This document shows, piece by piece, positions 26,568-59,500 of a stretch of DNA of 64,000 nt (its first letter is position 1; every line of letters begins with the position of its first letter). Made by a program: the position numbers and the translations under genes. The stretch lies in NCBI RefSeq assembly GCF_037971845.1, contig NZ_CP150227.1:1364001-1428000 (forward strand). The letters are read 5' to 3'. Under the pieces are notes generated by a model. That model was not told the DNA's origin, did not search any database, and saw only the letters and a list, made by a program, of their open reading frames with translations. Origin of the DNA: Paenibacillus sp. FSL R5-0766 (GTDB lineage: Bacteria; Bacillota; Bacilli; Paenibacillales; Paenibacillaceae).

Positions 26568-26758
26568 TATATAAATTGAACTAAACATTAACACAAAACG
26601 GAGAGGACAGAAAGGACCTGAAGAAGCGGAGCGTTCGCCTTTATCCCCGGATTTCCCCTTTATAAAAGGAATCAAAAAAATCTGGGGATAACAGCGATCG
26701 GAAGGTTGTTCTGTCATCGGAGTGTGCAGTGTAAATATTCTTTAGTTCAATTTATATA
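26568..26758 (+). repeat. MITE-like element, copy 1 (short form, 191 bp)
   Basis: Perfect 18-bp terminal inverted repeats: TATATAAATTGAACTAAA (26568-26585) and TTTAGTTCAATTTATATA (26741-26758). Between them are the family core motifs ACGGAGAGGACAGAAA, GAAGAAGCGGAGCGTTCGCC, CTGGGGATAACAGCGATC and GGTTGTTCTGTCATCGGAG, and an internal inverted repeat (ATCCCCGGATTT...AAATCTGGGGAT). No coding capacity. It lies 36 bases upstream of the editing-domain gene. Confidence 0.85.
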
Positions 26759-26794
26759 GAGTAGAATATTTATATTGAAAGAGTTGAATTTGAT

Positions 26795-27283
26795 ATGTTA
26801 AACAAACAGGGTTTCTATGATCTTTTAGATCGAAATAATATCGTTTACGAAAGTATTGAACATCCCGCAGTATACACGATGGAGGAAATATTCTCTTATC
26901 AGATTCCACATACAGAATGTATCGTTAAAAATCTGTTTCTGCGTGATGACAAGAAGCACAACTATTATCTGGTGACGATTGCTGGAACGAAGTCCGTTGA
27001 TTTGAGAAGTTTAAGCGAAAAGATACCTAGCCGCAAATTAAGTTTTGCCAGTGAAAAGGATTTGTTGGAATTCCTCGGATTGGAAAAGGGCCATGTAAAT
27101 CCAATGGGAGTGTTTAATAACATACAGAAAAACGTGACCGTAGTTTTTGACAAGGATTTAGTTGGTCAGAAAATTGGAATTCATCCCATGGAAAATACGG
27201 CGACGGTATTTCTTGAATTTGAAGATGTGAAGGAACTAATTACAGCTCAAGGTAGCAACGTTGTCATGTGTGACGTTGAATAA
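26795..27283 (+). CDS. Free-standing prolyl-tRNA editing domain protein (YbaK/EbsC, PrdX-like)
   Basis: A 162-residue cytoplasmic protein of the YbaK/ProX superfamily, which removes wrong amino acids (mainly alanine) from tRNA-Pro. Supporting phrases are ESIEHPAVYTMEEI, TECIVKNLFLRDDKKHNYYLV with the conserved Lys, LSFASEKDLLEFLGLEKGHVNPMGVFNN, and IHPMENTATVFLEFEDV. This pattern is that of the PrdX group rather than YbaK proper. The full-length ProS later in the window has its own editing insert, so this is a second check. The message may begin inside the MITE-like element just upstream. The gene ends before a strong bidirectional terminator. Confidence 0.9.
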   Translation: MLNKQGFYDLLDRNNIVYESIEHPAVYTMEEIFSYQIPHTECIVKNLFLRDDKKHNYYLVTIAGTKSVDLRSLSEKIPSRKLSFASEKDLLEFLGLEKGHVNPMGVFNNIQKNVTVVFDKDLVGQKIGIHPMENTATVFLEFEDVKELITAQGSNVVMCDVE

Positions 27284-27320
27284 TACCTTTGAAGCTAAAT
27301 ACGAGAAAAACAAATATAAC

Positions 27321-27369
27321 AAAAAGGTTCCTGCCGTTCTGTATATACAGAGATGGCGGGAACCTTTTT
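27321..27369. terminator. Bidirectional terminator
   Basis: AAAAAGGTTCC at the left pairs with GGAACCTTTTT at the right, with further pairing of CTGCCGT/ATGGCGG type and a TGTATATACA centre. It separates the editing-domain gene (+) from the MFS gene (-) and has A/T runs on both sides. Confidence 0.9.
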
Positions 27370-27408
27370 CTTGCGATTCAAACATTTTATTTAGTCTGCA
27401 GATGTAGG

Positions 27409-28683
27409 TTACTCTTCACTACCGTTTTCTTTCGCCCAGATATTGAGTAATTTATCGGATGGAAGCAGGAATGTGAAAATCCCGAGCAGTGGCAGGAAGC
27501 TGCACATCTGCATTACCGGTGATACGCCGAAGACGTCAATCCAGTTGCCCAGCACGAGTGCGCCCAGGCCGCCCATACCAAATGCCAGACCAGTAATTAG
27601 ACCGGAAACCGTTCCGATTTTGCCTGGAATCAGCATTTGTGCGTATACAACCGTAACCGAGAAGCTGGATAACATGATAAAACCAATAATGGTTAGCAGT
27701 ACACCTGTCCAGAACAGATTCGCATAGGGCAGCAACAGAGCCAGTGGAGCAGCTCCAGCCATGGACAGGAAGATCAGATTACGTTTGCCGAATCGATCTG
27801 CCAGTGGGCCTCCGAAGAACGTACCAAGCGCCCCGGCAGCCAGGAACAGGAAGATATAGATTTGCGCGTCCTCTGTGGACAATCCAAAAGTATCTTTCAG
27901 ATTAAACGCATAGAAGCTGCCGATGGAAGCGATATACCAGGAACGAACAAAGACGAGCAAGATCAATAGCGTAATGGCGGCAGTAATCTTTTTGCGCAAA
28001 GCAGGATTGGGTGCACGACGAGCAGCAGCCTGTCTACGCAGATATCCTCCCGATTGCAGCATACGTCCATACCAACGGGCGATGTAGATCTGAACTGCAA
28101 TCCCCATGGCAGCAATGCCTGTAAATCCAATGGCACCGAACAGTCCAAACGGGATAAAGATCCAACGTGTAAGCAATGGGGCAAGGGATTGCCCAGCGTT
28201 ACCACCGACTTGGAAGATGGACTGTGCCAGTCCACGGCGTTGCCCGGCAGCCATGTGTGATACACGCGAACCTTCCGGATGGAAAGCAGCGGAACCCAGA
28301 CCGACAAAGATAACGGAAATCAGGACAGCCATATAACTGTCAGCGAAGGCCAACAACAACATGCCGGTAAATGTAAAACCCATGCCAATGGGCAGGATAG
28401 ATGGTGTCGGTTTTTTATCAGCAAACCAGCCTACGACAGGCTGCATAATGGATGCGGTAAAGTTAATAGCAAATGAGATCCATCCGATCTGAGTATACGT
28501 GAGATGCATGGAATCTTTTAGAATCGGAAAAATGGCGGGAATAACCGACTGGATCGAATCATTGAAGAGATGAACCAAACTGATGGCAATGAGTATCCGG
28601 TAAACGGTGCTTTGGGCATCCGATCCGGGTGGGGCTTTCGAACGCGCTGTGGCGTCCTTGGTTAAAGTGGATTGAGTAGACAT
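27409..28683 (-). CDS. MFS exporter of the fosmidomycin-resistance (Fsr) group
   Basis: A 424-residue inner-membrane protein with twelve predicted membrane segments. It begins, after a polar tail, with RILIAISLVHLFNDSIQSVIPAIFPILKD and LTYTQIGWISFAINFTASIMQPVVGWFADKKP, and has GLGSAAFHPEGSRVSH, which are hallmarks of the Fsr group. Members export fosmidomycin and perhaps other small acids; the natural substrate is not known. ATG 28683 follows AAAGGAG; an upstream ATG at 28710 has no such site. A single-gene unit. Confidence 0.88.
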   Translation of the reverse strand: MSTQSTLTKDATARSKAPPGSDAQSTVYRILIAISLVHLFNDSIQSVIPAIFPILKDSMHLTYTQIGWISFAINFTASIMQPVVGWFADKKPTPSILPIGMGFTFTGMLLLAFADSYMAVLISVIFVGLGSAAFHPEGSRVSHMAAGQRRGLAQSIFQVGGNAGQSLAPLLTRWIFIPFGLFGAIGFTGIAAMGIAVQIYIARWYGRMLQSGGYLRRQAAARRAPNPALRKKITAAITLLILLVFVRSWYIASIGSFYAFNLKDTFGLSTEDAQIYIFLFLAAGALGTFFGGPLADRFGKRNLIFLSMAGAAPLALLLPYANLFWTGVLLTIIGFIMLSSFSVTVVYAQMLIPGKIGTVSGLITGLAFGMGGLGALVLGNWIDVFGVSPVMQMCSFLPLLGIFTFLLPSDKLLNIWAKENGSEE

Positions 28684-29075
28684 GTACAATTCTCCTTTGG
28701 TCGCGGTCACGAGGGATCAGCGCCTGATGTTGTAATATATGCGTGTAAGCATATTGTTACATAATAGGATAGATTGATTGGACCGACAAGGGGAACAAGG
28801 GAAAACGGTAGTGAGAGAAGACTACTAACTGACCTCTAAGAATTTAAAAATGCAGTAGCTACTATAGATGTTAATCAGGCAACAGCCTGAGAATGTTTTT
28901 TTGTAGGCAATTATTAAATAAAGAAAACAGATAACCGAACCATGGAATCCAATCCTTCGTGTAAGCGTATTATACGGTTTCTCAAAGTTATGGAGAGTTG
29001 GGTAAATCTGAAACACAGCTACCCCTTTGGAATCTAAAATTCGTACAGCATATGAATCTTAAGTAGCTTATCTGT

Positions 29076-29300
29076 ATGGCCGCTGAAGCCAAAGTTACAG
29101 CGTAATGGATTGGTCCATATGTGGACACACATTGTTCCAAAGCAGGAGCAGTCCTTACGATTGAAGATATTGCAGCAGATGCCTTGACTACCAAATACAG
29201 TGATGAAGGTAACAACGCAGGTGATTCTAAATTCAGTCTGGGCAAAATAGTAGCGATGGTCAACACGGGGCATGGTGAATTTTCCACAACCAATCCGTAG
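29076..29300 (+). pseudogene. Decayed coding fragment with internal stop
   Basis: Reads MAAEAKVTA, then TAA at 29103 (one change from CAA), then 64 codons in the same frame including WIGPYVDTHC, AVLTIEDIAADALTTKYSDEG and KFSLGKIVAMVNTGHGEF up to TAG. The composition is that of a real protein, but the family is not recognised. No ribosome binding site is seen. Confidence 0.45.
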
Positions 29301-29672
29301 AACAAATCTCAGTACCCTTAACCATTCTGCTGGGTAGGTAATTCGAATGTTGTGAACACAATGCTCCTAGTGCAAAGTGCGAATGCAGAGAGAGAGACTG
29401 GATCCTCGAGTAGTCACACGAATGTGGAAATTATTACTGTTTATTTTTTTGCTTATGTATTTGAGCTTGGAGAGAGCCTCGTTTTGCAGCATGCATGCCC
29501 GATTGGATGTAAATGGTGGTTGTGTATTGGCAACGTCTCTGTCGCCAGCTAATCTGAATGACCCGGCCAACTCTGAGCTTAAGCAACCAACTTATGAAGA
29601 GGTTGATAACATATAGTTAACTGATGAGTACAGCGACTACGCTGCTAATAGAAGGCATACACGGAACTTTTG

Positions 29673-29959
29673 ATGTTTGGTTTTAAACAAATCGGTCCCA
29701 TGACAGCTCCAATGAATCTTCAAAAAGGTGCAGAAATATTACTTGAAACGCATCTGCATTAGTTTCTGGTAAAACCAATGTGTTGAGTATCGCGAAAACG
29801 GCAACGATCGGTAGCATATTTTATCTTACTTCAAAGGAAGTTATATTATAACATTTGATGAAAGTGTAGGAATTTTTTACTATGAAGGTATCTGGTCTGA
29901 CAAGCACAATTAAAGTTAGTGTGGTCTACAAAGCAGACAGCATTGTGAACCAAAAGTAA
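29673..29959 (+). pseudogene. Decayed coding fragment with frameshift and two stops
   Basis: MFGFKQIGPMTAPMNLQKGAEILLET is followed, after a one-base shift, by SALVSGKTNVLSIAKTATIG and then MKVSGLTSTIKVSVVYKAD with stops between. The pieces look like parts of one former small protein with a hydrophobic segment. The family is unknown. Confidence 0.4.
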
Positions 29960-30288
29960 CTAAATAATTTAGTAGTGGAATTAACTATATAACACATCAA
30001 TAAAAAAGAGAAAACACCTACAGAATAGTGTGGATCACCAATCGTGATGATTCTTCATCTATTTCTGGGATGCTTTTTAGGTTTGATGTATTTAAATTTA
30101 CCTTATATGAATAGTTACAGAGACAAAGGTCTTGAAGATAATTACAATACTTCCTCTTTAATAAATAATTATAGGTAAATAGTACCTTTTATCCTTTTAT
30201 TGCCCATTTTATTGAATAGTTCGTGTAACATTGTATATGCGCTCGGATTAATATGTGGCGTAAAATAACGGGAAAATCAGGAGGGTTT

Positions 30289-31173
30289 ATGAAAAAATTA
30301 GCGGTTACTATTTCTTCTGTAATGTTGCTGTCCACATTATCATCCTTTTCTACAAATATTCATGCCGAAAAAGTTATGGGTTCTCAAGATGAAGGAATTC
30401 AATATAATGTTTCAAAAGATGGTGCTAGGCTAGAATATAGTACATCTTATGAAGAAAAAGATACGGGGCTAAATGTGGAACTTAAAATTACTGAAGAGGG
30501 TGACATTCGTAAAGTAGAGCATTATGTTGACAATAAGTTTTTTTCTGAAGCGACTTATAATAAAGCTGAAGATCAAGTGGTAACTAAGCTGGCTAATGGT
30601 GATGAAATTATACAAAAGGCTAGTGACCTTGTTATGGAATTACCTGAGCATGAAATTCTCTCGGAAGAAAAATCCGAATCTGATTCTGATATGGGAAAAA
30701 ATGAAATTGATTCTATGACGGAATTTGCTTTAAATGCATCCCCAGGCTATAATTTCGTGAGGACAAAATATAATACAGCTTGGAATCAATATGGTTCAAT
30801 TTATCAAAAGCAGTCACTTGTGGATACAAAAGTTTACCGATTGAATATATCAGCCGGGACCGTCGTATCTACCATTGCTTCGATTATAGACATTTTTGCA
30901 ACAAAAGGTAAGGTGACAGCTCTGTTTAGAACATTACTTTATTCGACGTCTGGTGTAATTGTTGATACAATTGTTGGCCAAATGGATGCTAAAAAGCATT
31001 TGACACAAGTTGAAGTGTATTCACAAGGATTGCTTGGTTTAAGATCAGAAAGATACATTGTCACTGCGAATATTAACGGTAGAACAGCGCAGATTATTGA
31101 TACTGGGGACGAAAGAACCTATGATGAGTTAATTGACATTGGCGTATATAATGTGGTACTTCAGAAATTATAA
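30289..31173 (+). CDS. Secreted protein of unknown function, AT-rich
   Basis: A 294-residue protein with a signal peptide (MKKLAVTISSVMLLSTLSSFSTNIHA). The mature part has a charged, acidic N-terminal half (ENVELKITEEGDIRK-type strands, an acidic run EILSEEKSESDSDMGKNEID near residues 120-140) and a hydrophobic segment around residues 195-240 (GTVVSTIASIIDIFATKG, LLYSTSGVIVDTIVGQ). I recognise no family. ATG 30289 follows AGGAGGG. Codon use is AT-richer than in neighbouring genes. The next gene, a small membrane protein, starts within about 15 bases of the stop, so the pair may work together, for example as secreted effector and membrane partner (inference). Confidence 0.75.
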   Translation: MKKLAVTISSVMLLSTLSSFSTNIHAEKVMGSQDEGIQYNVSKDGARLEYSTSYEEKDTGLNVELKITEEGDIRKVEHYVDNKFFSEATYNKAEDQVVTKLANGDEIIQKASDLVMELPEHEILSEEKSESDSDMGKNEIDSMTEFALNASPGYNFVRTKYNTAWNQYGSIYQKQSLVDTKVYRLNISAGTVVSTIASIIDIFATKGKVTALFRTLLYSTSGVIVDTIVGQMDAKKHLTQVEVYSQGLLGLRSERYIVTANINGRTAQIIDTGDERTYDELIDIGVYNVVLQKL

Positions 31174-31186
31174 AGGAATGATGAAG

Positions 31187-31399
31187 ATGAAATCGCTATC
31201 ACCCTATGTTCTTGCCAAACGTAACTTGGCGATGACCATTTTATTCATGGCAGTCATGACTTTCCTGGCTATTTATGTTGCATCTACATCTGTGTACTTT
31301 GCTATTGGATTTTTTGTAGTTGTTCAATCGATTGGTGTGCTGATGTTGAGACATTACGTCAAAAAAGTCAGAGAACTAAAGGAAGAACAGTCTACTTGA
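31187..31399 (+). CDS. Small membrane protein with two transmembrane helices
   Basis: About 70 residues with two hydrophobic helices (LAMTILFMAVMTFLAIYVA and VYFAIGFFVVVQSIGVLML) and a basic C-terminal tail KKVRELKEEQ. ATG 31187 is ten bases after AAAGGA; ATG 31181 is nearly as good. It directly follows the unknown secreted protein and ends before a strong terminator, so the two form one unit. The size and topology are those of many immunity or holin-like partners, but nothing proves either. Confidence 0.65.
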   Translation: MKSLSPYVLAKRNLAMTILFMAVMTFLAIYVASTSVYFAIGFFVVVQSIGVLMLRHYVKKVRELKEEQST

Positions 31400-31451
31400 A
31401 CGCATTGCGATCCCATTGTATTGAGAGACTGAGGTTCTAAAGGTTTATACT

Positions 31452-31491
31452 AAAAAGCCGAACTCCTTCAGATTTGAAGAGTTCGGCTTTT
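31452..31491. terminator. Bidirectional terminator before queF
   Basis: AAAAGCCGAACTC and GAGTTCGGCTTTT form a 13-bp stem with a 13-base loop, with A and T runs on both sides. It ends the secreted/membrane pair (+) and the queF message (-). Confidence 0.9.
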
Positions 31492-31542
31492 CTGTGTCTT
31501 ATAATTTATTTTAGTTATAGCAGAGCTTATTTACCCGCCAGT

Positions 31543-32034
31543 TTAACGATTATCAATCGTCTCCGGATACATATCATGATTCATCATGCGGTGCTCAGCC
31601 ATTTGCTCATACTTCGTTCCTGGCTTACCATAGTTCGTGTAAGGGTCAATGGAAATGCCGCCGCGCGGTGTGAATTTGCCCCATACTTCGATGTAGCGCG
31701 GGTCCATCAGCTTGATCAGATCGTTCATGATGATGTTCACACAGTCCTCGTGGAAATCACCATGGTTACGGAAGCTGAACAGGTACAGCTTGAGCGATTT
31801 GCTCTCCACCATTTTGATATCCGGAATGTAGCTGATATAGATCGTTGCAAAGTCCGGCTGACCCGTAATCGGGCACAGGCTGGTGAACTCCGGGCAGTTG
31901 AATTTCACAAAATAATCGCGGTACGGATGTTTGTTATCAAAGCTCTCCAGGATGCCCGGATCATATTCAAATGTATATTTTACGTTCTGGTTGCCCAGCA
32001 ACGTCACATCTTGCATTTCATCAGGTTGTCTCAT
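31543..32034 (-). CDS. queF: NADPH-dependent 7-cyano-7-deazaguanine reductase
   Basis: A 163-residue cytosolic enzyme that reduces the nitrile of preQ0 to preQ1, the last small-molecule step before insertion into tRNA. The active-site Cys54 and Asp61 are in [13 protein letters not shown], and the family motif for NADPH binding is VESKSLKLY. The length fits the short, unimodular YkvM type of Bacillota. AAGGAG precedes the ATG. It is the last gene of the queCDEF set, separated from queE by 150 bases that contain a small hairpin (AGGCAAAATTGCCT), so it may have its own promoter. Confidence 0.96.
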
Positions 32035-32184
32035 CGGTTATTAAACGCTCCTTGTTTCCGTCGAAGCCCAAAGCCTCGCGGTATATAATAAATAGGCAAT
32101 TTTGCCTGTATAACTCTCTTCATTGTCTAAGGACCTTTCGCCCTCATCCTTACATCACGCCGCCCATTCCACCCATACTGCCCA

Positions 32185-32967
32185 TCACACACCGCGTTTG
32201 TTGCCCCATACCAGCGTATGAAGCTGTGGAAGCACACGAACATCATTCAGGTCATCGGAGGCGCTGACTTGGTCAATCAGCCACTCATAACGAGCAAGCA
32301 GGGAGGACGCCAGATCTGGCGTGTCGGCGGAAGTCACATCCGGGTTCCCGGTTTGTAAAAATAAATCCGTGCCCGGATACCGCGCATGCACACGGCGGGC
32401 ATAGTCCAGGTCTGTCTCATCGAAGATCACGATCTTCAGACTATAGCTTCGTTCTACCGGGCCAGCGGCCAACCGTTCGATCAGATCATCCAGCACGGCC
32501 CAATCGGTGTCCATGCCGGAGCTGGGTGGCTTGGGCGAGACGGTGACTTCGTCAATGTCCGCCAGCCAAGGCTGCCAGCGGGAGCCCTGCGTCTCCACCG
32601 CGGTGCGGATACCGTTCTCCCGCAGCAAGGCAACCAATCCGCCCAGCGAAGCGAGCAGGGCGGGATTGCCGCCAGAGATGGTGACATGGGAGAAACGGGT
32701 GCCGCCAACGCGGCGCAATTCTTCCCATACATCCTCTGGCGTAATCATCCGAATCTGGTCCTTGCCACTGCCGTCCCAGGTAAAGGCCGAGTCGCACCAG
32801 GAGCAGCGATAATCGCAGCCCGCGGTGCGAACAAACATCGTTTTTTGCCCGATGACCATGCCTTCGCCTTGAACCGTCGGACCAAAAATCTCCATCACGG
32901 GAATACGAGCTTCTTTGCGAGATCCCGTCTCATTCACCGTATGCTTCTGCTGTGTCACACTACTCAT
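32185..32967 (-). CDS. queE: 7-carboxy-7-deazaguanine synthase (radical SAM)
   Basis: A 260-residue radical SAM enzyme that contracts carboxytetrahydropterin to 7-carboxy-7-deazaguanine. The iron-sulfur motif is the CX3CX2C of RTAGCDYRCSWCDSAFTW (Cys51, Cys55, Cys58), and EIFGPTVQGEGMVIGQKTMFVRT is the conserved N-terminal loop. VTISGGNPAL is the SAM-binding stretch. Its start overlaps the end of queD by 8 bases, so translation is coupled. This segment is markedly GC-richer than its surroundings, as is common for queE in this operon. Confidence 0.95.
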   Translation of the reverse strand: MSSVTQQKHTVNETGSRKEARIPVMEIFGPTVQGEGMVIGQKTMFVRTAGCDYRCSWCDSAFTWDGSGKDQIRMITPEDVWEELRRVGGTRFSHVTISGGNPALLASLGGLVALLRENGIRTAVETQGSRWQPWLADIDEVTVSPKPPSSGMDTDWAVLDDLIERLAAGPVERSYSLKIVIFDETDLDYARRVHARYPGTDLFLQTGNPDVTSADTPDLASSLLARYEWLIDQVSASDDLNDVRVLPQLHTLVWGNKRGV

Positions 32968-39440: not shown

Positions 39441-41228
39441 ATGATGCGTCAAAGTGAAATGCTTGTCCCAACATTACGTGAAGCGCCAGCGGAGGCGGAT
39501 GCAGCGGGACATCGCTGGTTACTGCGTTCCGGTATGATTCGCCAACTTGCTGCGGGAATTTACAGTTACCTGCCCCTTGGACGGCGTATATTGTTAAATG
39601 TTGAACGGATCGTTCGTGAAGAGATGGATCGTGCTGGATGTCAGGAAGTGTTGCTGCCGATTATGCAGCCTGCGGAGTTGTGGGAAGAATCCGGAAGATA
39701 CACACAGTATGGTCCCGAATTGATGCGTCTGAAGGATCGTCATGCACGGGAATTTGCTCTTGGACCAACACATGAGGAAGTCGTAACCGCTTTAGCGCGG
39801 GACGAGGTGAGTTCGTATCGTAAGCTGCCATTCACCCTGTACCAGATCGGAACCAAGTTCCGGGATGAGCGCCGTCCTCGATTTGGATTGCTGCGTGGAC
39901 GTGAGTTCATCATGAAGGATGCGTACTCTTTTGCTTCGGACTGGGAAGAGCTTGATCGTACTTATCAGGCGATGAACAAGGCGTATAGCCGCATTCTGGA
40001 GCGTTGTGGTCTGGACTATATCCGTGTTGAGGCGGACGCGGGAACGATTGGCGGTCAAGGTGAAACACACGAGTTCATGGCTCTTGCTGATGTGGGTGAG
40101 GACACAATTGTAACCTGCAAACATTGTGGATATGCTGCGAATCTGGAGAAAGCGGGTTATCAGACTTCTGGAGATATGGAGAAAAAAGAAGGAAGCTTGG
40201 AAGTTCCAGCCGACTCTGCGAGTGCAGACTCCGCGCTTCAAACGGATGAACATTCAGGAGCGGAAAACGTAGTACGTATCTCGACTCCTGACGTTCGTAC
40301 GATCGCAGAGTTAAGTTCCTTTGTGGGCGAAGGTGCTGAGAATATGATCAAAACGCTGCTTTATGTGGCAGATGGTCAGCTCGTCGCTGCGCTTGTGCGT
40401 GGAGATCATGAACTGAATGACATCGCATTGAAACAGGTGCTTGGGGCAGAGGAACTGATCCTTGCAGACGATGCAGCCATTGCGGCACATCCAAATCTGA
40501 AGGTAGGATTCCTGGGTCCGATTGGACTAAATCTGCCGATGGTGGTGGACGCTGACGTGGCAGTGATGAAGAGTGCAATTACAGGAGTCAATGAAGTGGA
40601 TGTGCATGTTTCCGGCGTACGCCCAGGGGTTGATTTTGCATTGGAGCGAGTAGAACGAATCCGCTTTGCTGCGGAAGGGGATGCTTGTCCAACATGTGGA
40701 TCGCCACTTGTGTTTACCAAAGGCATCGAGGTTGGCCATATTTTCAAATTGGGAACGAAATATAGTGATGCCATGGGCGCTTCATTCCTGGATCGTAATG
40801 GTCGTCAGTGTGCGCCCGTCATGGGATGTTACGGCATTGGCGTATCCCGCCTGATGGCCGCTATAGCTGAACAATATGCAGGAGATGATGGCATAAAATG
40901 GCCTGCTGCTGTTGCGCCTTATGATGTGCATCTGATTACAGTAAGTTGGAAGGATGAGCAGCAACGCCAGCTTACCCTTGAACTGGAACAACAATTGATC
41001 GATGGCGGTTACTCTGTACTGGTTGATGACCGGGATGAACGTCCAGGTGTGAAATTCAAGGATGCAGAGTTGATCGGATTGCCTGTGCAGATCGTTATTG
41101 GCCGAGGAGCAGCAGAAGGACAGGTCGAACTGGGATCACACGCACTTGCAGCATCAGGCGAGTCGAAACGAATCGGGATGACGGCACAGGAGGCTGTGCT
41201 TTATGTGAAAGAACAGCTCACTTCCTAG
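39441..41228 (+). CDS. proS: Prolyl-tRNA synthetase
   Basis: A 595-residue class II synthetase of the bacterial type with an editing insert. Motif 2 is in FTLYQIGTKFRDERRPRFGLLRGREFIMKDAYSF, and motif 3 in APVMGCYGIGVSRLMAAI. The insert, about residues 225-405, includes VRISTPDVRTIAELSSFVG and MIKTLLYVADGQLVAALVRGDHELND. The anticodon-binding domain closes the protein. The insert contains a Ser/Ala-rich spacer (about 245-270) that makes it slightly longer than the usual 565-575. AGGAG precedes the first ATG. Expression is under the T-box. The TAG stop is at the very edge of a MITE-like element. Confidence 0.97.
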   Translation: MMRQSEMLVPTLREAPAEADAAGHRWLLRSGMIRQLAAGIYSYLPLGRRILLNVERIVREEMDRAGCQEVLLPIMQPAELWEESGRYTQYGPELMRLKDRHAREFALGPTHEEVVTALARDEVSSYRKLPFTLYQIGTKFRDERRPRFGLLRGREFIMKDAYSFASDWEELDRTYQAMNKAYSRILERCGLDYIRVEADAGTIGGQGETHEFMALADVGEDTIVTCKHCGYAANLEKAGYQTSGDMEKKEGSLEVPADSASADSALQTDEHSGAENVVRISTPDVRTIAELSSFVGEGAENMIKTLLYVADGQLVAALVRGDHELNDIALKQVLGAEELILADDAAIAAHPNLKVGFLGPIGLNLPMVVDADVAVMKSAITGVNEVDVHVSGVRPGVDFALERVERIRFAAEGDACPTCGSPLVFTKGIEVGHIFKLGTKYSDAMGASFLDRNGRQCAPVMGCYGIGVSRLMAAIAEQYAGDDGIKWPAAVAPYDVHLITVSWKDEQQRQLTLELEQQLIDGGYSVLVDDRDERPGVKFKDAELIGLPVQIVIGRGAAEGQVELGSHALAASGESKRIGMTAQEAVLYVKEQLTS

Positions 41229-41456
41229 ATAAGTTGAACTAATCATATACACAGAAACGGAGAGGACAGAAAAAACTGAAAAAGCGAAGCGTTCGCCTAA
41301 AAGCTTTCTGAAAGAAAGCTGCATCGGAAGCATACGCTATCTCCGGATTTTTCCCTTCAGCAAAGGGAATCAAAAAAATCTGGGGATAACAGCGATTGGA
41401 AGGTTATTCTGTCATCGGAGTGTCCGTGTGGACATATCTTTAGTTCAACTTATATA
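41225..41456 (+). repeat. MITE-like element, copy 2 (long form), abutting the proS stop codon
   Basis: Left end TAGATAAGTTGAACTAA and right end TTAGTTCAACTTATATA are inverted repeats with one mismatch. The core motifs of the family are all present, plus the long-form module AAAGCTTTCTGAAAGAAAGC. The TAG stop of proS (41226-41228) is within the first bases of the terminal repeat. Confidence 0.85.
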
Positions 41457-44938: not shown

Positions 44939-45052
44939 AATTATGCCAACTCCTTCGATTCGTACAAGTGCTTGAGTTAATATTAAGAAGAAAGTTGAAT
45001 GCGACAACTCCTAAACCCTCTGCGGGTGCGCCGTTCCGGATTCGGATCGATC

Positions 45053-45155
45053 TTTTGATCGCTGTTATCCCCGGATTTCCTGTTTCCCTTTCCTAAAGGG
45101 TGAAATCCGTTGATAAAGGCGAACGCTTCGCTTCTTCAGAATCGATTCCGTCTCC
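45053..45155 (-). repeat. MITE-like element, copy 3 (partial, inverted, decayed)
   Basis: The minus strand reads GAAGAAGCGAAGCGTTCGCC, then a TTTATC...GGATTT stretch, AAAGGGAAACAGG, and GGGGATAACAGCGATC, as in the family core. Terminal repeats are missing. It lies in the 930-bp gap between the repressor and ArpU-type genes. Confidence 0.65.
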
Positions 45156-45645: not shown

Positions 45646-45701
45646 GTGACTTAATTGATTAATGAGAAGAAGTGCGGGAGATGAGATGGTTGCATGTTTA
45701 A

Positions 45702-45805
45702 CTATATAGTTGAACGGAAACGTAGAGGATAGAAATAACCTGAAGAAGCGGAGTTGAAAGTTTTCTGAAAGAAAGCTGCATCGGAAGCTTGTTCTATCAT
45801 CAGAG
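45702..45805 (+). repeat. MITE-like element, copy 4 (internally deleted)
   Basis: The left end CTATATAGTTGAAC and the motifs GAAGAAGCGGAG, TTTTCTGAAAGAAAGCTGCATCGGAAGC are followed at once by TTGTTCTATCATCAGAGTG. The part between the two ATCGGAAG sequences of intact copies is missing, as if lost by recombination between them. The right terminal repeat is not kept. Confidence 0.7.
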
Positions 45806-50853: not shown

Positions 50854-51079
50854 TATATAAGTTGAACTAAATTTACACGATAACGGAGAGGACAGAAAAA
50901 AACGAAAAAGCGAAGCTAAAAGCTTTCTGAAAGAAAGCTACTTCGTAAGCATAATCACACATTTATCACCGGATTTTTTCTTAGGAAAGGGAATCAAAAA
51001 AAATCTGGGGATAACAGTGATTGGAAGGTTGTTCTGTCATCGTAGTGTCAGTGTAAATAATCTTAGTTCAACTTATATA
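50854..51079 (+). repeat. MITE-like element, copy 5 (long form, 226 bp)
   Basis: Perfect 17-bp terminal inverted repeats TATATAAGTTGAACTAA (50854-50870) and TTAGTTCAACTTATATA (51063-51079). It has the long-form module AAAGCTTTCTGAAAGAAAGC and the common core. No coding capacity. Confidence 0.9.
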
Positions 51080-52073: not shown

Positions 52074-52092
52074 GATTAAACATACATTTCAG

Positions 52093-52789: not shown

Positions 52790-52945
52790 ATTCAGGCGTA
52801 ATTCATCCCGTTTACCATCAGCGTGAGTGTGAAAAGGCGGTAAAATGGTATTATCGGATCAGCAGCAAGGAAGACACACCGACAGCTCATACGCTAACGT
52901 ACAGCCGGCTAGGGGGCCGGTTTTTTAATTCGGTGATTGCATCCT
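52790..52945 (+). pseudogene. Decayed copy of the 38-codon terminator-containing leader gene
   Basis: From 52846 the sequence reads YYRISSK, then with a frame change GRHTDSSYANVQ, closely matching YYRINNKGRTESTYANVQ at 55411. The start codon is lost (TGG in place of TTG). The hairpin CCGGC...GCCGG followed by TTTTTT (52913-52926) is kept. Similarity begins upstream of the ORF, near 52790. It precedes DUF4127 by about 50 bases. Confidence 0.65.
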
Positions 52946-52995
52946 TGCCCTGATCGGGTATTAAAGACTAAACAGATAACAGGAGGCTACGTGAT

Positions 52996-54846
52996 ATGAA
53001 AACAGTATTGTATGTTCCACTGGATGATCGTCCAGCGAATCTGGATGATGTGATTGTGCAAGGGAAAGCAGCCGGTATCCATATCGTTACACCGAACCTG
53101 AGTGATATTAAGAATCGTCTGGACTCGGAGAAAACCGTAGATGGCACAACGTTGCTCGGCACCTCCACGCCGGTTTATGGCAAACCTTCCAAGATTCACG
53201 ACTTTATTCTGAAACATGCTGCCAAGGTCGACGGATTCATTATCTCATCCGATATGCTCGCCTATGGCGGTCTGATTGGCAGTCGTCAGCTCCGCGAAGA
53301 TGGAGGAGGCACCTATCCAGAATACGATGATGAGACGACGAGGTTGCTGGATGTGATTCGCGTGATCAAGCAGAAATATCCACGCAAACCCGTATTTGTA
53401 ATGGATACCATCATGCGTTTGGCTACGACCTCGTTTGCAGATGGCTTGGCGCTTGATGCATATAATGAGTCCCGTGCGTTGATGCAGCAGCCACGTCAGA
53501 CATACACTGAGTTTGAGGATATTATCGAAGGTTATAACCTGTCCCCGGATGGAGTGGAATATGGGACAACGACCTATTTTGATAAAGAACAGTATTACAA
53601 TACAAGACAACATAAGTTCAAAACAAATCTGTACATTTTGGATCAGCTGGCTCGCACAGGTTATATCGATTTCCTCGCGGTTGGAGTCGACGATGCCAAC
53701 ACGCAGGGTGTACAGATCAATGAAATCAAATATGTAGAAGCGCGGATCAATGAATGGCTGGGTGGAACCAATGGACAAAATCCGGATCGTGCTATCGTCT
53801 TACCTGATGCGGATGGTCTGGGGCACGCTTTGGTTGCTCGCATGGCGAACCAGTTGTTCCGAGGCGGGGCGAGGACACGTTATGGAGTGAAATATTTTGG
53901 TCCTCACGGCAATACCATCATTAACACGTATGAATACATGGATGTACACGAGAATGTGGTTCGTCATGTGGATATTGTAGGTGGTGTGCTTGTAGCGGAT
54001 TCGGCATATCCTGAACCGGAGGTGGTGACGGATGCGGGTGCTGGCTTGGAAAATGAACAGCTAGTGGCTGTAGCAGCCGATCAAGTTGTCCCGTTTGACA
54101 TGACCTCCGAACTGGATCGTATGACGAAGGGTCACCCAGGTAATTCCGGGGAGAACACGGGCATCGACATTGAGATTATCGCCATTACGGCTCTGGATCA
54201 GGTGCAGGCTGCGTTGGAGCAATTGACGCTGAATAGTGAGCAAGGTCTGCCTTCGGTATTGATTGATTTTGTGGGTAAAGGACCAGCGAATGTTGATGTT
54301 GCTGAAGCGATGCTCAACAGTCCATATACCGGACGGGTTCTGGGTTATAGTGCATGGAATACGCCAGGTAACAAGATCGGTATTGCCGTAGGCATGGGGC
54401 AGTCGAGGTACGCGTTGATCACAACAGAGAAGCATGAGCATAAGTTGCGCGATGCGATGAACGCGCATGGCTCGTTGTTGTTTAAGCGTTTCCTGAAGGA
54501 TTACTACTACAAAGCGGTAGCGATTGCAGAGATTCGCACGTATTCCCGAGCTCATGCGCTGTATACCAACGTGGCTACCCTTTCGGATCAAAATATGTTG
54601 CTGTTCAACTCAGAGGAAGACTATGCCCATTTGCAAACATTGCTTCGTGACTTGATGCAAACTTACACAACGGCACTCGGGAATAAGACAGCCTTCCAGA
54701 CAGGTAATGTGGCGATCAAGCAGATCTGTGATGACGAATTGTCCTATGCGACGTATAGCAGTGCGCTGCTGGATTATGCGAATCCTGATTTCATCTGGGG
54801 CCGTGCATTTGAGATCACATTGAATCCGAAGGTTATGCTGAACTAA
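52996..54846 (+). CDS. DUF4127 family protein
   Basis: A 616-residue cytoplasmic protein of the DUF4127 family, recognised by VLYVPLDDRPANLDDVI at the N-terminus and VDGFIISSDMLAYGGLIGSRQ, followed by VFVMDTIMRLATTSFADGLALDAYNESRALM. The DDRP motif and the conserved Asp/Asn/Gly-rich blocks (VGVDDANTQGVQINEIKY, VLPDADGLGHALVARM) suggest an enzyme, but no activity is known to me. AGGAGG lies 11 bases before the ATG. The hairpin of a decayed leader lies about 70 bases upstream. It converges on the DUF3139 gene with no terminator between them. Confidence 0.88.
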   Translation: MKTVLYVPLDDRPANLDDVIVQGKAAGIHIVTPNLSDIKNRLDSEKTVDGTTLLGTSTPVYGKPSKIHDFILKHAAKVDGFIISSDMLAYGGLIGSRQLREDGGGTYPEYDDETTRLLDVIRVIKQKYPRKPVFVMDTIMRLATTSFADGLALDAYNESRALMQQPRQTYTEFEDIIEGYNLSPDGVEYGTTTYFDKEQYYNTRQHKFKTNLYILDQLARTGYIDFLAVGVDDANTQGVQINEIKYVEARINEWLGGTNGQNPDRAIVLPDADGLGHALVARMANQLFRGGARTRYGVKYFGPHGNTIINTYEYMDVHENVVRHVDIVGGVLVADSAYPEPEVVTDAGAGLENEQLVAVAADQVVPFDMTSELDRMTKGHPGNSGENTGIDIEIIAITALDQVQAALEQLTLNSEQGLPSVLIDFVGKGPANVDVAEAMLNSPYTGRVLGYSAWNTPGNKIGIAVGMGQSRYALITTEKHEHKLRDAMNAHGSLLFKRFLKDYYYKAVAIAEIRTYSRAHALYTNVATLSDQNMLLFNSEEDYAHLQTLLRDLMQTYTTALGNKTAFQTGNVAIKQICDDELSYATYSSALLDYANPDFIWGRAFEITLNPKVMLN

Positions 54847-54850
54847 TCTG

Positions 54851-55195
54851 TTATCTCACCATGGGCTCCTCATGTTTGGGATCATCACTGGTATGACTGT
54901 ACTGCTTAATCTCTCTGTTGTTAAAAATGATATATTGATACTTCGCTTCGAGTTCATCCGCGAATGTTACTGAGGCACCGTAAGGTGCTTCAGAACTTTT
55001 TGAGGAGTAAGTACCTTGTACTTCGATAAGCTGTTCGGGTGAGTAACCTTTCTCTTCAATCAGGTAAGTGGTTACCTGTTGTTCAGCATCATTTTTCTTG
55101 AGCGGATTACCAAACAGTCCGAAGTAGGCCCAGCAGGATATCCCGAGTATAAATGCTAAGACAGCAAGTGAAGTAATCTTGAATGTTTTACTCAT
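54851..55195 (-). CDS. DUF3139 family small secreted/anchored protein
   Basis: About 114 residues: an N-terminal membrane or signal segment (FKITSLAVLAFILGISCWAYFGLFG) and an extracytoplasmic domain (AEQQVTTYLIEEKGYSPEQLIEVQGTYSSKSSEAPYGASVTFADE) typical of DUF3139. GAAGGAG precedes ATG 55195; a longer frame to 55240 has no such site. It lies tail to tail with the DUF4127 gene, 4 bases apart. Function unknown. Confidence 0.82.
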   Translation of the reverse strand: MSKTFKITSLAVLAFILGISCWAYFGLFGNPLKKNDAEQQVTTYLIEEKGYSPEQLIEVQGTYSSKSSEAPYGASVTFADELEAKYQYIIFNNREIKQYSHTSDDPKHEEPMVR

Positions 55196-55410
55196 AGGTA
55201 TTTCTCCTTCTTTTACGTAAGCCACAATGAATTTGATCATGAAATATTAATGTATTTGGATAAATTTATCAATTCTTTGAACTTAATGCTTATTTATTTG
55301 TTCGTTAAAATGATGATTCCAGAATCGTCTTTTTTCCACCCGAACGACGCCCTTAATCGCACCTAAGTCGTACGGAACACCATCCGCGCTAGGAATGAAA
55401 GGGTGTAAGA

Positions 55411-55527
55411 TTGTATTATCGGATCAATAACAAAGGACGCACCGAAAGCACATACGCTAATGTACAGACCGGCCAGGTGGCCGGTCTTTTTGATGCGGTG
55501 AATGTAGTCCCGGTACTGGTTCGATAG
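55411..55527 (+). CDS. 38-codon leader ORF upstream of the tail cluster
   Basis: TTG 55411 is 7 bases after AAAGGG, and the frame ends at TAG 55525. It reads YYRINNKGRTESTYANVQTG, then a hydrophobic end GLFDAVNVVPVLVR. Comparison with the decayed copy at 52846 shows mainly third-base and conservative changes (Ser/Asn, Asp/Glu, Ser/Thr), a protein-coding signature. A perfect terminator hairpin lies inside the reading frame. It could be a small structural protein or a leader peptide; no family is recognised. Confidence 0.55.
   Translation: MYYRINNKGRTESTYANVQTGQVAGLFDAVNVVPVLVR
55467..55492 (+). terminator. Intrinsic terminator inside the leader ORF
   Basis: GACCGGCC AGGT GGCCGGTC is a perfect 8-bp GC-rich stem with a 4-base loop, followed by TTTTT. 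It lies upstream of all tail genes, inside a translated frame, so ribosome progress or an antiterminator could decide read-through (inference). Confidence 0.65.
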
Positions 55528-55623
55528 CAATACAGACTCTGAGTTAAAAGGGGGAGTCTACTGCTGCTGCACTGTCGCTGCATCGTGTGGGCAGATCTCA
55601 AACTTGCAGCTAAAGGGGGCGAA

Positions 55624-56553
55624 ATGAATGTGTCTATGAGAAATGAGATTAGCACTGCCATGAGCGCCAGTAAATTAAGTACGCTCATTAAAAAAACGCT
55701 GAAACAGAAGCTCGCGTTACTTGTTCCAGATTGGGGCGGTCGTGTGCTGGATGTACCTGGGCCAGGCGAAGTGTTGGCTGGGCCTTGTGCAGTCGTTGCG
55801 TTTGCCGAAGAGGTGCCGAAGTCTGCTTGGGCGGGATATCGAAGGATTATTAAAATCTCACCATACGCACGTCCGGAAGATGGTGGCGCTGAACAAGTGG
55901 AATCTTGGTCAGCCCTTCTAATTGAAGGGTTACACCAGGTAAGACTGGTGGATGAAGCAGGTGAGGCCTTCACTTGCATCTATTTGGGTTCTTCAGATAG
56001 TGACCGGGTGGATGCAGGGTCTGGAATGCTTACACGCAGTCTGCGGTTCGGAGTGTATGTTCCCGAAGACTCGGGAGCTGCTCTGGCTGAAACAGGGAAC
56101 GCGTGGTTAGCTGCGCTTCAAGGCTGGACACAGCAAGAGCTTGGCTCGAACTGGTCGGTATATGGGGATGTATGGCCCGGTGGATACGATATGCCGTCTG
56201 TGTTATGGCGATTGGCTGGATACAGCACGTCTATGGCAGGCACTTCGGCATTGGAGGTTCGACAACAGTGGATTGGGCATGTGCTCACCGATCATTCGGT
56301 GCTAACACGGCAGACCGTTACTCGGTTGGTCCGGCAACTTGCAGTGCAATCTCGTCTTGCCGTCACTAAAACGGGTGGCGAAGAGCAAGAAGGTAACACG
56401 CGATATATCACAGTGGATGAAGTCACAGCAGATTTACAGGCAGATGCCTATCTGAACGGACAGATTCGTCTGACGTTGCAACAGCGGATTCGTCGTCCGG
56501 GTACAAATGTACCTTTGATCCGTGAGATTTACCATAGCAAAGGGATGGAGTAA
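55624..56553 (+). CDS. Tail-cluster protein of unknown role (position of PBSX XkdI/J)
   Basis: A protein of 310 residues from ATG 55624, behind AAAGGGGGCG. Phrases include KTLKQKLALLVPDWGGRVLDVPGPGEVLAGPCAVVAF and RRIIKISPYARPEDGGAEQVESWS. No family is recognised for sure. In PBSX-type clusters the genes before the sheath encode head-tail joining or tail-completion proteins, so this may be a tail terminator (inference). The C-terminal 80 residues look like a separate domain. A 0.4-kb gap with another repeat follows. Confidence 0.6.
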   Translation: MNVSMRNEISTAMSASKLSTLIKKTLKQKLALLVPDWGGRVLDVPGPGEVLAGPCAVVAFAEEVPKSAWAGYRRIIKISPYARPEDGGAEQVESWSALLIEGLHQVRLVDEAGEAFTCIYLGSSDSDRVDAGSGMLTRSLRFGVYVPEDSGAALAETGNAWLAALQGWTQQELGSNWSVYGDVWPGGYDMPSVLWRLAGYSTSMAGTSALEVRQQWIGHVLTDHSVLTRQTVTRLVRQLAVQSRLAVTKTGGEEQEGNTRYITVDEVTADLQADAYLNGQIRLTLQQRIRRPGTNVPLIREIYHSKGME

Positions 56554-56585
56554 ACGTTAGTCCAGAGGAACCTTTTATTAGAGGT

Positions 56586-56791
56586 TGTTCAAAAAGGCCC
56601 GCTTTTGATTACAAAGGATGCCTAACGGCATCATCAGCATCGAATATGGAATTCAGCCGAATAAGCATATGCTTACGATGATTGTTTCCTTCGGAAACAT
56701 GTAGTTGCTCACGTAGTTTTCCCTACGCTCTGCTACTCCATTTCTAACTTCATCCCATCTTCTCGGTACTGAAAACCGATCTTTTTGAACA
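56586..56791. repeat. Second type of inverted-repeat element
   Basis: TGTTCAAAAAG (56586-56596) and CTTTTTGAACA (56781-56791) are perfect 11-bp terminal inverted repeats of a 206-bp stretch with several inner hairpins (GTTTCCTTCGGAAAC, AAGCATATGCTT, GATGCCTAACGGCATC). No coding capacity is seen. It is unrelated to the other MITE-like family. The rest of the gap to 56955 is AT-rich, without features. Confidence 0.7.
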
Positions 56792-56955
56792 TGCACTTTT
56801 TAAGAGTGGTTCCAGATTATAGCTTTGAAATGATAGATGTAGCTTCAACATTATAGCTTCAAATTCATAGGTTCATAGGATCAAAAATTCATAGATCAAG
56901 CTTAAAGATCATCGTTTAACGAAATCAGTAGTCCAACAAATGAGGTGAGATGGCA

Positions 56956-57156
56956 ATGGCAAGCTCAGTGAAAAAAAGCAAACAGACAGGCCCGCGGTAT
57001 ACACGGGCAGAACTGATGAATCATGCAGAAGCCCTCTTTGCCGTTAAGGCAGAGGTGCTGTACGGTGCGCTGTACGAAGCGGCGCAAGAGACGTTTTCCA
57101 TTGAAGAAACGCAAGAACGAATTAACCAATTTATGAAAGCGAAGGTGAAGGGATAA
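56956..57156 (+). CDS. YqzN/YkzM-type small phage protein
   Basis: A 66-residue protein. RYTRAELMNHAEALFAVKAEVLYGALYEAAQETFSIEETQERINQFMKAKVKG matches the pattern of the YqzN/YkzM domain found next to sheath genes in PBSX and skin elements; the role is not known to me. ATG 56956 is spaced correctly from GAGGTGAG; the ATG six bases earlier is too close. The stop overlaps the sheath start (TAATG). Confidence 0.75.
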   Translation: MASSVKKSKQTGPRYTRAELMNHAEALFAVKAEVLYGALYEAAQETFSIEETQERINQFMKAKVKG

Positions 57157-58619
57157 TGGCAGGTGGAACTTGGGAGCAAACGAATCGTCCGGTCCTTCCG
57201 GGCTTATATATGAATTTTCAGGCGGCAGCATCTTCGGCCATTCAAGCGGGTACACGGGGAACGGTCGTTGTGCCAATCAAGGCCAACTGGGGTCCAGTAG
57301 GGACTTTTGTTGAAGTAGGGAGCGAAGCGGCGATTGAACGTATCTATGCGGCGAATGTGCTGGACAACGGTACGGCTTATACGTCCTTGAAGCTCGCCCT
57401 GTTGGGTGGGCCGAAGAAGTTGCTTGCTTATCGGGTAGCAAGTGCTGCGGCCAAAACAGCCACGCTTACCTTGAAGGACAGCAGTGATGCCAATGTGCTG
57501 CAACTGGATGCGAAGTATCCGGGAGATCGTGCAAATGGATTCTACGTCACCATCCAGCCAGGTGTGATTGATAATACGAAGCATGAAGTGCGTCTCTTCG
57601 AAGGTAACCGGATGTTGTATGCGCTCCTGACAGCGGATATTACAGCAGCTTCTCTGGCAAAAGAGATTAACGCGGATGAACAAAATGTCTGGGTAACGGC
57701 TCAGGCGATTGGCGATGGTGCAGGTGTAGTTGCAACAATTGCGGGTGCGGCATTCAAAGGCGGCGTAAGTGGCAACGATGACCTGACCAATGCAGAATAC
57801 ATTGCTGTACAGGGTGCGCTGGAAGGGGAGCAATTCGACGTCTTGGCTTTGGATCAGGCGGCAGATGCACCTCTGCTTGCGAGTTTTGCGGTATGGGTGA
57901 AACGTGTGCGTAGTGAAGGTAAAGCGGTGGTGGCTGTATTTGGCGGTTCCGCAGCGGATGACACTTCTGCTACAGCAGCACAAAAAGCAGCAGCACGTTC
58001 GCTTACGCTCAACCATGAAGGTGTGATTAATGTCGGTACAGGCGTGCGTCTTGGAGATGCATTCTATAGCTCGGCAGAAACGTCTGCTTATGTTGCAGGA
58101 CTGATCGCTGGACAACGCCTGAACCAATCCACAACTTATGCTGCTACTCCGTTCGATGATGTGACACGTCGCTGGACGCGTGCAGAACAGGAGCAGGCGG
58201 TACAGAATGGCGTATTTATTTTCTTCCATGATGGACGTCAGGTGAAAGCACTTCGCGGTGTAAACACACTGGTAACGCCAGCCGCTGGACAGAATAATGC
58301 TTGGAAAAAAATCCGTTCCATTCGTGTGTTGGACGCGATCAACATGGATCTGCAGCGCTCCGCGGAAGATACGTATATCGGTAAAGTGAACAATACCGAA
58401 GAGGGTCGTCAGGCATTGATTAGTGCCATGAAGGCCTATTTGGCGCTGCTCGCACAGAGCAATGTAATTGAAGCGGACAGTTATGATGTCATTCTCGATC
58501 CGGCATATTACGGCGCGGCACCAGTTCTCAAACCGGAAGCGGATCAAGTGTTCCTTCAATGGAATGTGAATCTGACGGATGTGATGGAGCAGTTGTTTGG
58601 TACATTTTACGTGCAATAA
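57156..58619 (+). CDS. Contractile tail sheath protein (XkdK-like)
   Basis: A 487-residue sheath subunit of the PBSX XkdK type. TWEQTNRPVLPGLYMNFQAAASSAIQAGTRGTVVVPIKANWGPVG is the typical N-terminus, and VTRRWTRAEQEQAVQNGVFIFFHDGRQVKALRGVNTLV and IRSIRVLDAINMDLQRSAEDTYIGKVNN the conserved C-terminal sheath domain. The sheath contracts around the tube and drives it into the target envelope. Its presence shows a myovirus-type tail. A MITE-like element follows immediately after the stop. Confidence 0.93.
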   Translation: MAGGTWEQTNRPVLPGLYMNFQAAASSAIQAGTRGTVVVPIKANWGPVGTFVEVGSEAAIERIYAANVLDNGTAYTSLKLALLGGPKKLLAYRVASAAAKTATLTLKDSSDANVLQLDAKYPGDRANGFYVTIQPGVIDNTKHEVRLFEGNRMLYALLTADITAASLAKEINADEQNVWVTAQAIGDGAGVVATIAGAAFKGGVSGNDDLTNAEYIAVQGALEGEQFDVLALDQAADAPLLASFAVWVKRVRSEGKAVVAVFGGSAADDTSATAAQKAAARSLTLNHEGVINVGTGVRLGDAFYSSAETSAYVAGLIAGQRLNQSTTYAATPFDDVTRRWTRAEQEQAVQNGVFIFFHDGRQVKALRGVNTLVTPAAGQNNAWKKIRSIRVLDAINMDLQRSAEDTYIGKVNNTEEGRQALISAMKAYLALLAQSNVIEADSYDVILDPAYYGAAPVLKPEADQVFLQWNVNLTDVMEQLFGTFYVQ

Positions 58620-58637
58620 GGTTTCTAGAATAATTAC

Positions 58638-58823
58638 TATATGTTGAACTGATGGTTTACACGATAACGGAGAGGGCAGAAAAAATCTGAAGAAGCGAAG
58701 CGCTCGCCTTTATCACCGGATTTTCCCTTTTTGAAAAGGAATCAAAAAAATCTGGGGATAACAGCGATGGGAAGATTGTTCTGACTGCGGAGTTATACCG
58801 TGTAATATTTATTAGTTCAACCA
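58638..58823 (+). repeat. MITE-like element, copy 6 (short form), between sheath and tube genes
   Basis: Left end TATATGTTGAACTGA and right end TTAGTTCAAC are imperfect inverted repeats. The family core is complete (ACGATAACGGAGAGGGCAGA, GAAGAAGCGAAGCGCTCGCC, CTGGGGATAACAGCGAT). It starts about 18 bases after the sheath stop and ends next to the tube gene's AAGGAGG. Confidence 0.85.
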
Positions 58824-58841
58824 ACCCAAGGAGGAAAATAT

Positions 58842-59249
58842 ATGTTGGATGCGTCAAGAGTAATTCTCGGTACCCATGGTCAGCTGCATATCGATGGTAT
58901 GTGGCAGACAAACATTAACAAGTTGGAAGCGAGTGTGGAGATTGAAAAGCGTGAGCTGAATCTGGTTGGTAACGACTGGAAGGTGCACAAGAATGGCGCA
59001 AAAAAAGGAACAGGCACGATGACCGGCTACAAAGTAACTTCCGATATGATCCAGCGCGGCTTCACCAAATTCGAGATTATTTCCAAGCTAAACGACCCTG
59101 AATCGTATGGACACGAGAGTGTTTTGCTGAAAGGTTGCATGGTGGACAAAATCCAGCTTGCCAACTGGACAGCGGGTGAGGAAGTACCGGAGGAAACAGG
59201 CTTTACGTTTGAAGGATTTGAATTGCTGAATCCGATTGTGGCGAACTAA
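58842..59249 (+). CDS. Tail tube protein (XkdM-like)
   Basis: A 135-residue tube subunit of the XkdM/DUF2001 type: ILGTHGQLHIDGMWQTNINKLEASVEIEKRELNLVGNDWKVHKNGAKKGTGTMTGYKVTSDM and FTFEGFELLNPI are the family pattern. It forms the inner tube of the contractile tail. AAGGAGG is 10 bases before the ATG, at the very edge of the MITE-like element. It follows the sheath gene as in PBSX. Confidence 0.92.
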   Translation: MLDASRVILGTHGQLHIDGMWQTNINKLEASVEIEKRELNLVGNDWKVHKNGAKKGTGTMTGYKVTSDMIQRGFTKFEIISKLNDPESYGHESVLLKGCMVDKIQLANWTAGEEVPEETGFTFEGFELLNPIVAN

Positions 59250-59314
59250 AAAGGACTTTAATGGAGGCCGAGATGATCTCGGTCTCTTTGTTGTCTACTT
59301 AAAGCAAATTTAGT

Positions 59315-59500
59315 ATCTACACGATAACGGAGAGGACAGAAATAACGTGAAGAAGCGGAGCGTTCGCCTAAAAGCTTTCTGAAAGAAAGCTGCATCGGAA
59401 GCATAGGCTATCCCCGGATTTTCCCTTGAAGAGGGGAATCAAAAAATCTGGGGATAACAGCGATCGGAAGGTTATTCTGTCATCGGAGTGGCTAGTGTAC
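59315..59500 (+). repeat. MITE-like element, copy 7 (long form, no terminal repeats)
   Basis: The core (ACGATAACGGAGAGGACAG, GAAGAAGCGGAGCGTTCGCC, AAAGCTTTCTGAAAGAAAGC, CTGGGGATAACAGCGATC, TTCTGTCATCGGAG) is intact, but the TTGAAC/GTTCAA ends are not found, so the copy is probably old or trimmed. It lies between the tube gene and the tail-chaperone gene. Confidence 0.8.

Follow-up and report, generated by a model that had tools for sequence, protein, structure and literature searches.

The closest described counterparts of the element considered here are two small repeats of Streptococcus pneumoniae, namely BOX, which is built as boxA-(boxB)n-boxC, is over-represented between convergent genes and lies on the leading strand in 60.8% of the cases, and RUP, a 107-bp repeat with ends like those of IS630-Spn1 (both according to PMC3049150); miniature inverted-repeat transposable elements (MITEs) are the subject of a review (PMC10969869). 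The present case comes from a representative of the soil-dwelling Paenibacillus group, Paenibacillus sp. FSL R5-0766, in which a stretch of 64,000 nucleotides (nt), positions 1364001-1428000 of a single-contig 7.0-Mb genome (hereafter, the window), contains a repeat that a sequence-only reading had proposed as a new-looking MITE-type family. Like BOX as described in that source, this repeat is intergenic and present in high copy number, has a predicted RNA fold and insertion-sequence-like ends, and may carry up to two copies of an internal module (0, 1 or 2), the number of which changes in place; the likeness is architectural, perceived here without a sequence comparison to BOX, and the two differ in sequence and genus as well as in source, which appears to be of the IS630 type for the Paenibacillus repeat, whereas BOX has been linked to ISSpn2 (PMC3049150). 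With RUP, as portrayed there, the repeat shares small size, lack of autonomy and IS630-type ends, but it has another sequence, is longer and modular, and has an interior that is conserved across an order. The IS630/Tc1-mariner elements, represented by ISY100 (PMC2170065), are similar in that there are full-length relatives with a DDE_3 transposase and TA is duplicated, but the repeat itself is gene-less and has nothing in common with them except some 20 bp at either end.

Judging from sequence comparison, the best explanation of this repeat, and in our view a likely one, is an IS630/Tc1-type MITE that carries a structured RNA as its cargo; on the best reading, the family would be an uncatalogued structured RNA that is spread in MITE form by IS630-type transposases and whose function is a matter of inference. 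The DNA part of this account, a MITE whose source was likely of the IS630 type, we consider very probable, and selection on the interior at the RNA level is, given the substitution patterns, quite probable. Thus, the MITE interpretation stands at the DNA level but missed the interior, which appears to be a structured RNA under RNA-level selection. This interior comprises about 130 nt, to which a 39-nt arm may be added, and is predicted to fold into an outer stem and two hairpins, a small one at the junction and a long central one; three stretches at the junction are near-invariant, AGAAGCG, GCGKTCGCCTTT and AACAGCGATCG. In the short copies of the same genome, 45 of 49 of which were used for the pair analysis, 97.6% of the pair cells are standard, and both sides have changed in 12 of the 45 pairs, compared with 3.5 in shuffles and 4-6 in slid controls. 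A constraint at the DNA level, or none at all, predicts equal numbers of G·U and A·C; among 201 non-redundant copies, the 24 pairs of the arms show them at 102:25 (19 pairs versus 2, p = 2e-4), which argues for selection on RNA, whereas the terminal helix, with its four pairs, stands at 36:33. A mutation bias behind the G·U excess was considered and rejected because lagging-strand copies keep the direction (8:2); the anti-oriented copies point the same way (6:0), and the unpaired columns show a mild asymmetry, with 23.8 changes per column for C>T, 20.6 for G>A, 16.0 for A>G and 14.1 for T>C.

The same signature is seen far from the window. A distant set of 34 matches at 30 loci was drawn from 19 genomes chosen across 17 other genera. 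In an alignment of these that was fitted to the model, and in which one row is a palindromic copy matched on the reverse strand, compensatory changes affect 39 of 45 pairs (27 in shuffles and 18-26 in slid controls) and 303 cells (82 and 52-70, respectively), and the G·U to A·C ratios are 41:13 in the interior and 12:9 in the terminal zone. When the fold was predicted afresh on the distant alignment, 40 pairs were recovered, 33 of them compensated. A covarying fold with a near-invariant junction is what curated Rfam families display as well; Rfam 15 yielded no family at the gathering score for the window or for 15 loci in E-value mode, and three sub-threshold matches to microRNA models overlap elements. 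At 18 orthologous loci, post-insertion substitutions amount to 3.8% in the arms versus 5.8% in the adjoining 40 nt (p = 0.009), with 1.8% in the module, 4.7% in the terminal repeats and 6.6% in the central hairpin loop; the conservation of the core (0.8% substitutions) was not used because loci L039-L158 and L287-L346 had been retrieved around exact core matches. It is chiefly across the family as a whole that selection can be discerned.

The optional module, 39 bp in length, extends the small junction hairpin, and it accounts for the two forms that had been distinguished from the start, a short one of about 190 bp and a long one of about 226-231 bp, which indeed differ by this module with the hairpin that had been pointed out. 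The 97 full-length copies of the genome comprise 57 without it, 38 with one and 2 with two. Its number differs in 15 of the 34 pairs compared, 10 of which (at 8 loci) are mutually nearest and 5 ambiguous; two of the 8 loci were dropped, one for a large deletion (L012/L102) and one for an apparent miscount caused by a mutated second module (L272/L285), which leaves clean in-place presence or absence at six orthologous loci. Module-bearing copies also occur in genomes G114, G240 and G168.

At the DNA level, the copies end in TATATAARTTGAACTAA, inverted and 17-18 bp long, with the boundary falling between an outer C and TATATAARTTGAACTAA. Both ends are readable in 81 of 148 near-full-length copies, and the C is found outside the left end in 56 of the 81 and outside the right end (read inwards) in the same number, with 38 copies having it at both. 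Empty sites in related genomes place the boundaries of insertion at the inverted repeats and show that the element inserts at TA, often within CTAG, and duplicates the TA; the family is not one that is conserved in place as an RNA only, given that relatives lack several of the copies or have them in broken form. Numbering the copies along the window, the empty site of copy 1 in G002 reads ATATTAGAG, against ATAT-TA-element-TA-GAG in the window; that of copy 2 is at CTAG in G016 and at CTAA in G011, that of copy 5 is at GTAG in G011, and three more loci of the genome have empty CTAG sites. Single-TA empty sites at six loci of this genome fall at CTAG (four), TTAG (one) and GTAG (one). A candidate empty site was obtained for 28 of 164 queried elements, with at most 2 gaps in the junction alignment in 15, several of which are weak or diverged alignments with no visible TA. 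Such a preference for CTAG is said to have been described for IS630 by Tenzen and Ohtsubo in 1991, a study cited in PMC2170065. The copies have no coding capacity, being 187-231 bp long, and 5 of 121 copies in the genome overlap an open reading frame (ORF) of at least 80 amino acids. At two sites where the orientation is opposite in this genome and in G011, in-place inversion was entertained and rejected: the copies are 90% and 82% identical and not clearly nearer to each other than to others (best, 89% and 93%), so that independent insertion fits equally well or better.

A likely source of the Tc1/IS630 type, which had been surmised from the TA-rich ends, was found in the form of full-length elements with the same ends in relatives. 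The terminal ends were searched in 28 low-copy congeners, and pairs of ends about 1166 bp apart turned up there that enclose an IS630-type transposase gene; eight such elements, of 1166-1171 bp, are in G006, G043 (2), G058 (3), G035 and G050, with 0-3 mismatches in the ends. The transposase carries a DDE_3 domain (PF13358, E = 4.7e-37) and, in its first frame, helix-turn-helix domains. Transposase genes of 78% identity, lying between ends 0-2 bases off the same 20-mer, also occur in two further genera, in genomes G187 and G134, and the nearest annotated plasmid relatives are on a Paenibacillus larvae plasmid (78% identity) and in Geobacillus copies of the ISBs2 family (67%). The likeness between repeat and insertion sequence is, by eye, confined to about 20 bp per end, and the interior of the repeat is, as far as seen, not derived from the source element; such derivation is not obligatory for a MITE. 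A relative of the second half of the transposase (E <= 1e-20) is encoded in 16 of 75 congeneric genomes; it is found more often in genomes with few copies (11 of 27) than in those with many (5 of 48). A scan of the window's own genome for DDE_3, the one transposase family scanned for, gave no match. A pair of ends 1676 bp apart at 5559574-5561249 was rejected as an autonomous element because it consists of an ordinary 190-bp copy and a lone end around a gene. As a side observation, the two transposase frames overlap at -1 in 6 of the 8 elements, with seven consecutive A and a G nearby (loci L204, L205, L226, L228, L241 and L248), which suggests programmed -1 frameshifting of the transposase; an additional stop is present in L204 and L205.

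The family extends far beyond the 33 kb in which its seven copies had been noticed: these copies are real, but the family spans the genome and its interior the order. There are 188 core matches (at most 2 mismatches) in the genome, none with the reversed-pattern control, and 182 matches to the terminal repeat versus 10 in the control. The figure of 188 is the maximum among the 75 genus genomes searched, 67 of which have at least one core match and 48 at least 20; among the matches listed, at least 120 stretches come from named genomes, every title being Paenibacillus. A short copy had no match in a phage collection and a single weak, partial match in a plasmid set, to a Paenibacillus cellulosilyticus record. 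Among the papers searched, none links Paenibacillus, MITE and IS630 and none contains any of four motif strings of the repeat; papers that pair Paenibacillus with 'miniature inverted' appear unrelated, and the available part of an RNA-discovery paper, PMC8632094, does not mention Paenibacillus. A covariance model of 192 positions, applied with strict filters, matches 182 of the 246 genomes from the order (E <= 1e-3 per genome), which represent 27 of 46 genera and four families; when 299 genomes sampled from the class were searched, all 27 with a match (E <= 1e-4) belonged to the window's own family.

The DNA vehicle of this interior varies. In G204, of another family, there are 90 matches at E <= 1e-6, and 14 aligned copies are near-uniform with ends CTATATAARATGAAC, ends of a kind that is also found on copies of G240 and G187; the aligned copies of G114 and G168 are, like window copy 3, without IS630-type ends. 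In G134, identical loci L410, L411 and L413, together with a deletion derivative, L412, have the RNA adjoining, in antiparallel orientation, a gene whose transposase product combines DUF772 and DDE_Tnp_1_6 domains, a make-up that we take to be IS1182-like. L412 retains both ends, GGGGCTGTCCC/GGGACAGCCCC, and in L416 near-identical ends about 350 bp apart enclose the RNA, which makes this locus a probable MITE of some 350 bp with ends like those of the IS1182-like element. Genus g34 has exactly one match in 10 of its 13 matched genomes, which could represent a single-copy ancestral locus. On a possible but speculative reading, the RNA rather than the transposon would be the entity that is selected: a mobile RNA module of an uncatalogued kind that has repeatedly gained DNA vehicles (at least four genera have it with IS630-type ends, one with an IS1182-like element and others with none) and acts on the mRNAs that receive it.

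With respect to genes, called by a greedy longest-ORF script, the copies show a bias in orientation. Of 121 copies in the genome, 88 lie between codirectional genes, 28 between convergent or divergent ones and 5 over an ORF of at least 80 amino acids; unlike BOX as described in PMC3049150, the Paenibacillus copies are thus between codirectional genes in 88 of 116 placed cases, an arrangement that accounts for 90 of 148 gene pairs in the background. With transcription face 75 of these 88, and 13 face against it. The 75 co-oriented copies are a median of 41 nt from the upstream gene and 37 nt from the downstream one. Among 130 copies of named species, 64 face with and 10 against, and the remainder comprises 32 flanked by convergent or divergent genes, 8 that overlap ORFs and 16 at edges; for 64 of 69 loci of distant genera, the numbers are 22 with and 6 against, the two remaining arrangements accounting for 20 and 4, and another 12 overlap ORFs. 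The sign of the GC skew differs between loci below and above 3.4 Mb, and the sense strand is the leading strand in 93 of the 121 copies.

Could simpler scenarios accommodate these findings? If the repeat were an ordinary parasitic MITE with a fold that acts as DNA only, as a cruciform or hairpin aiding transposition, without any involvement of RNA, its ends shared with an IS630-type element, its TA-duplicating insertion and the decay of copies in place would all be as observed; this is nonetheless quite improbable in view of the strong G·U excess in the arms, set against near parity in the terminal helix, where DNA constraint is to be expected, and of the interiors that occur without such ends in other genera and in window copy 3. 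Those end-less copies in several genera, the covarying order-wide fold with its near-invariant junction and the single matches in most g34 genomes are, conversely, compatible with a regulatory RNA that belonged to the hosts in this order, acted in its ancestral form at particular genes and was later captured by transposon ends, the MITE being derived; we find this doubtful, the copy number elsewhere being high and variable, and no conserved neighboring gene has come to light, although none was searched for.

The orientation bias invites explanations of its own. Terminator-like sites are present on the antisense strand of 28 of 97 full-length copies versus 3 of 97 in the sense direction (shuffles, 11% and 5%), so that silencing of downstream genes by an antisense intrinsic terminator might seem to be the sole cause; this is unlikely, given that the terminator is absent from most copies and is more frequent in anti-oriented survivors (7 of 11) than in co-oriented copies (13 of 57), counts that do not support it as the only cause. 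Replication rather than transcription, which the excess on the leading strand would suit, is very improbable: that excess disappears between convergent or divergent genes (16:12, n = 28) and is kept in tandem contexts (p = 0.012), so the replication strand is not supported as the cause, on small numbers. There are, however, observations that weigh against the structured-RNA cargo that we favor. The 17 pairs of the core helices show A·C over G·U at 63:23, a ratio that is skewed because copies were retrieved through an exact core and because of the way in which the long form aligns; the 5' side of the central hairpin has changed at 6.0% since insertion, as fast as the flank; and many individual copies lose large pieces in place. 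Furthermore, the bias is equal in copies with intact ends (21:3) and decayed ones (38:6), which makes selection after insertion indistinguishable from biased insertion, and the tandem cases on the lagging strand number only 7, 5 with the gene and 2 against.

The MITE with a structured-RNA cargo would operate as follows. The inverted ends insert at TA, preferably in CTAG, duplicating the TA, as flanks and empty sites indicate, and an IS630-type transposase, sharing ends and target, probably mobilizes the element in trans. The interior of the sense strand, identified as such by the G·U excess, would fold, as the compensatory changes suggest, and the compact sense element may be tolerated or used within an mRNA, with transcription passing through; its most likely role would be that of an RNA processing or stability site, and the reverse orientation may be selected against. 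Any particular effect on mRNA can be put forward only tentatively, at somewhat less than even confidence. In the genome at hand, the DDE_3 source would be gone and the copies an orphan, decaying population.

As for the window itself, all seven of the proposed copies were recovered by both a profile hidden Markov model and the covariance model; the core pattern recovers 6 of them (6 matches versus 0.06 expected from shuffles) and the terminal-repeat pattern three, and six are on the plus strand and one on the minus strand, in keeping with the direction that had been given for six of seven. Copy 1 (26568..26758, plus) is a short form without the module, with terminal repeats intact at both ends (26568..26584 on the plus strand and 26742..26758 on the minus strand, by the terminal-repeat pattern), and is flanked by codirectional genes of the EcsC family and with a tRNA_edit domain. 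Its conserved core (26682..26699, plus) spans the 3' side of the central hairpin and the junction and, like other cores, contains GGGGATAACAG, which may resemble a conserved stretch of 23S rRNA, possibly by chance. Copy 2 (41226..41456, plus), a long form with one module, overlaps the stop codon of the upstream gene by 3 bases, a correction to the description of all copies as intergenic. Copy 3 (45037..45151, minus) consists of the interior only, like the end-less form of other genera, and is common to G008, G011 and G016 at the same position. Copy 4 (45694..45804, plus) has an internal deletion that spared the module and removed the central hairpin, and copy 5 (50854..51079, plus) is a long form with terminal repeats intact at both ends. 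Copy 6 (58638..58824, plus), a short form with a decayed right end, sits upstream of a phage tail tube gene and has an in-place shortened version in G008, G011 and G016; copy 7 (59300..59500, plus) has the module and decayed left and right ends, and the insertion is present without the module in L260 (G016), L161 and L166. Copies flank the tube gene in a phage-tail-like locus (57156-59975) that includes a sheath and an XkdN-like chaperone, and IMG/VR stretches L161, L162 and L164 have similar pairs of elements.

The MITE reading is right, yet the interior is the more important object: a structured RNA that is apparently uncatalogued, occurs up to 188 times in a genome and has a vehicle whose kind has been identified. 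The many insertions of one folded RNA beside genes, with the empty sites of sister species as controls, amount to a natural experiment. Selection on RNA in small repeats such as BOX is also testable, because the same count of G·U against A·C applies to them, and what appears to be junk DNA may be unrecognized mobile RNA.

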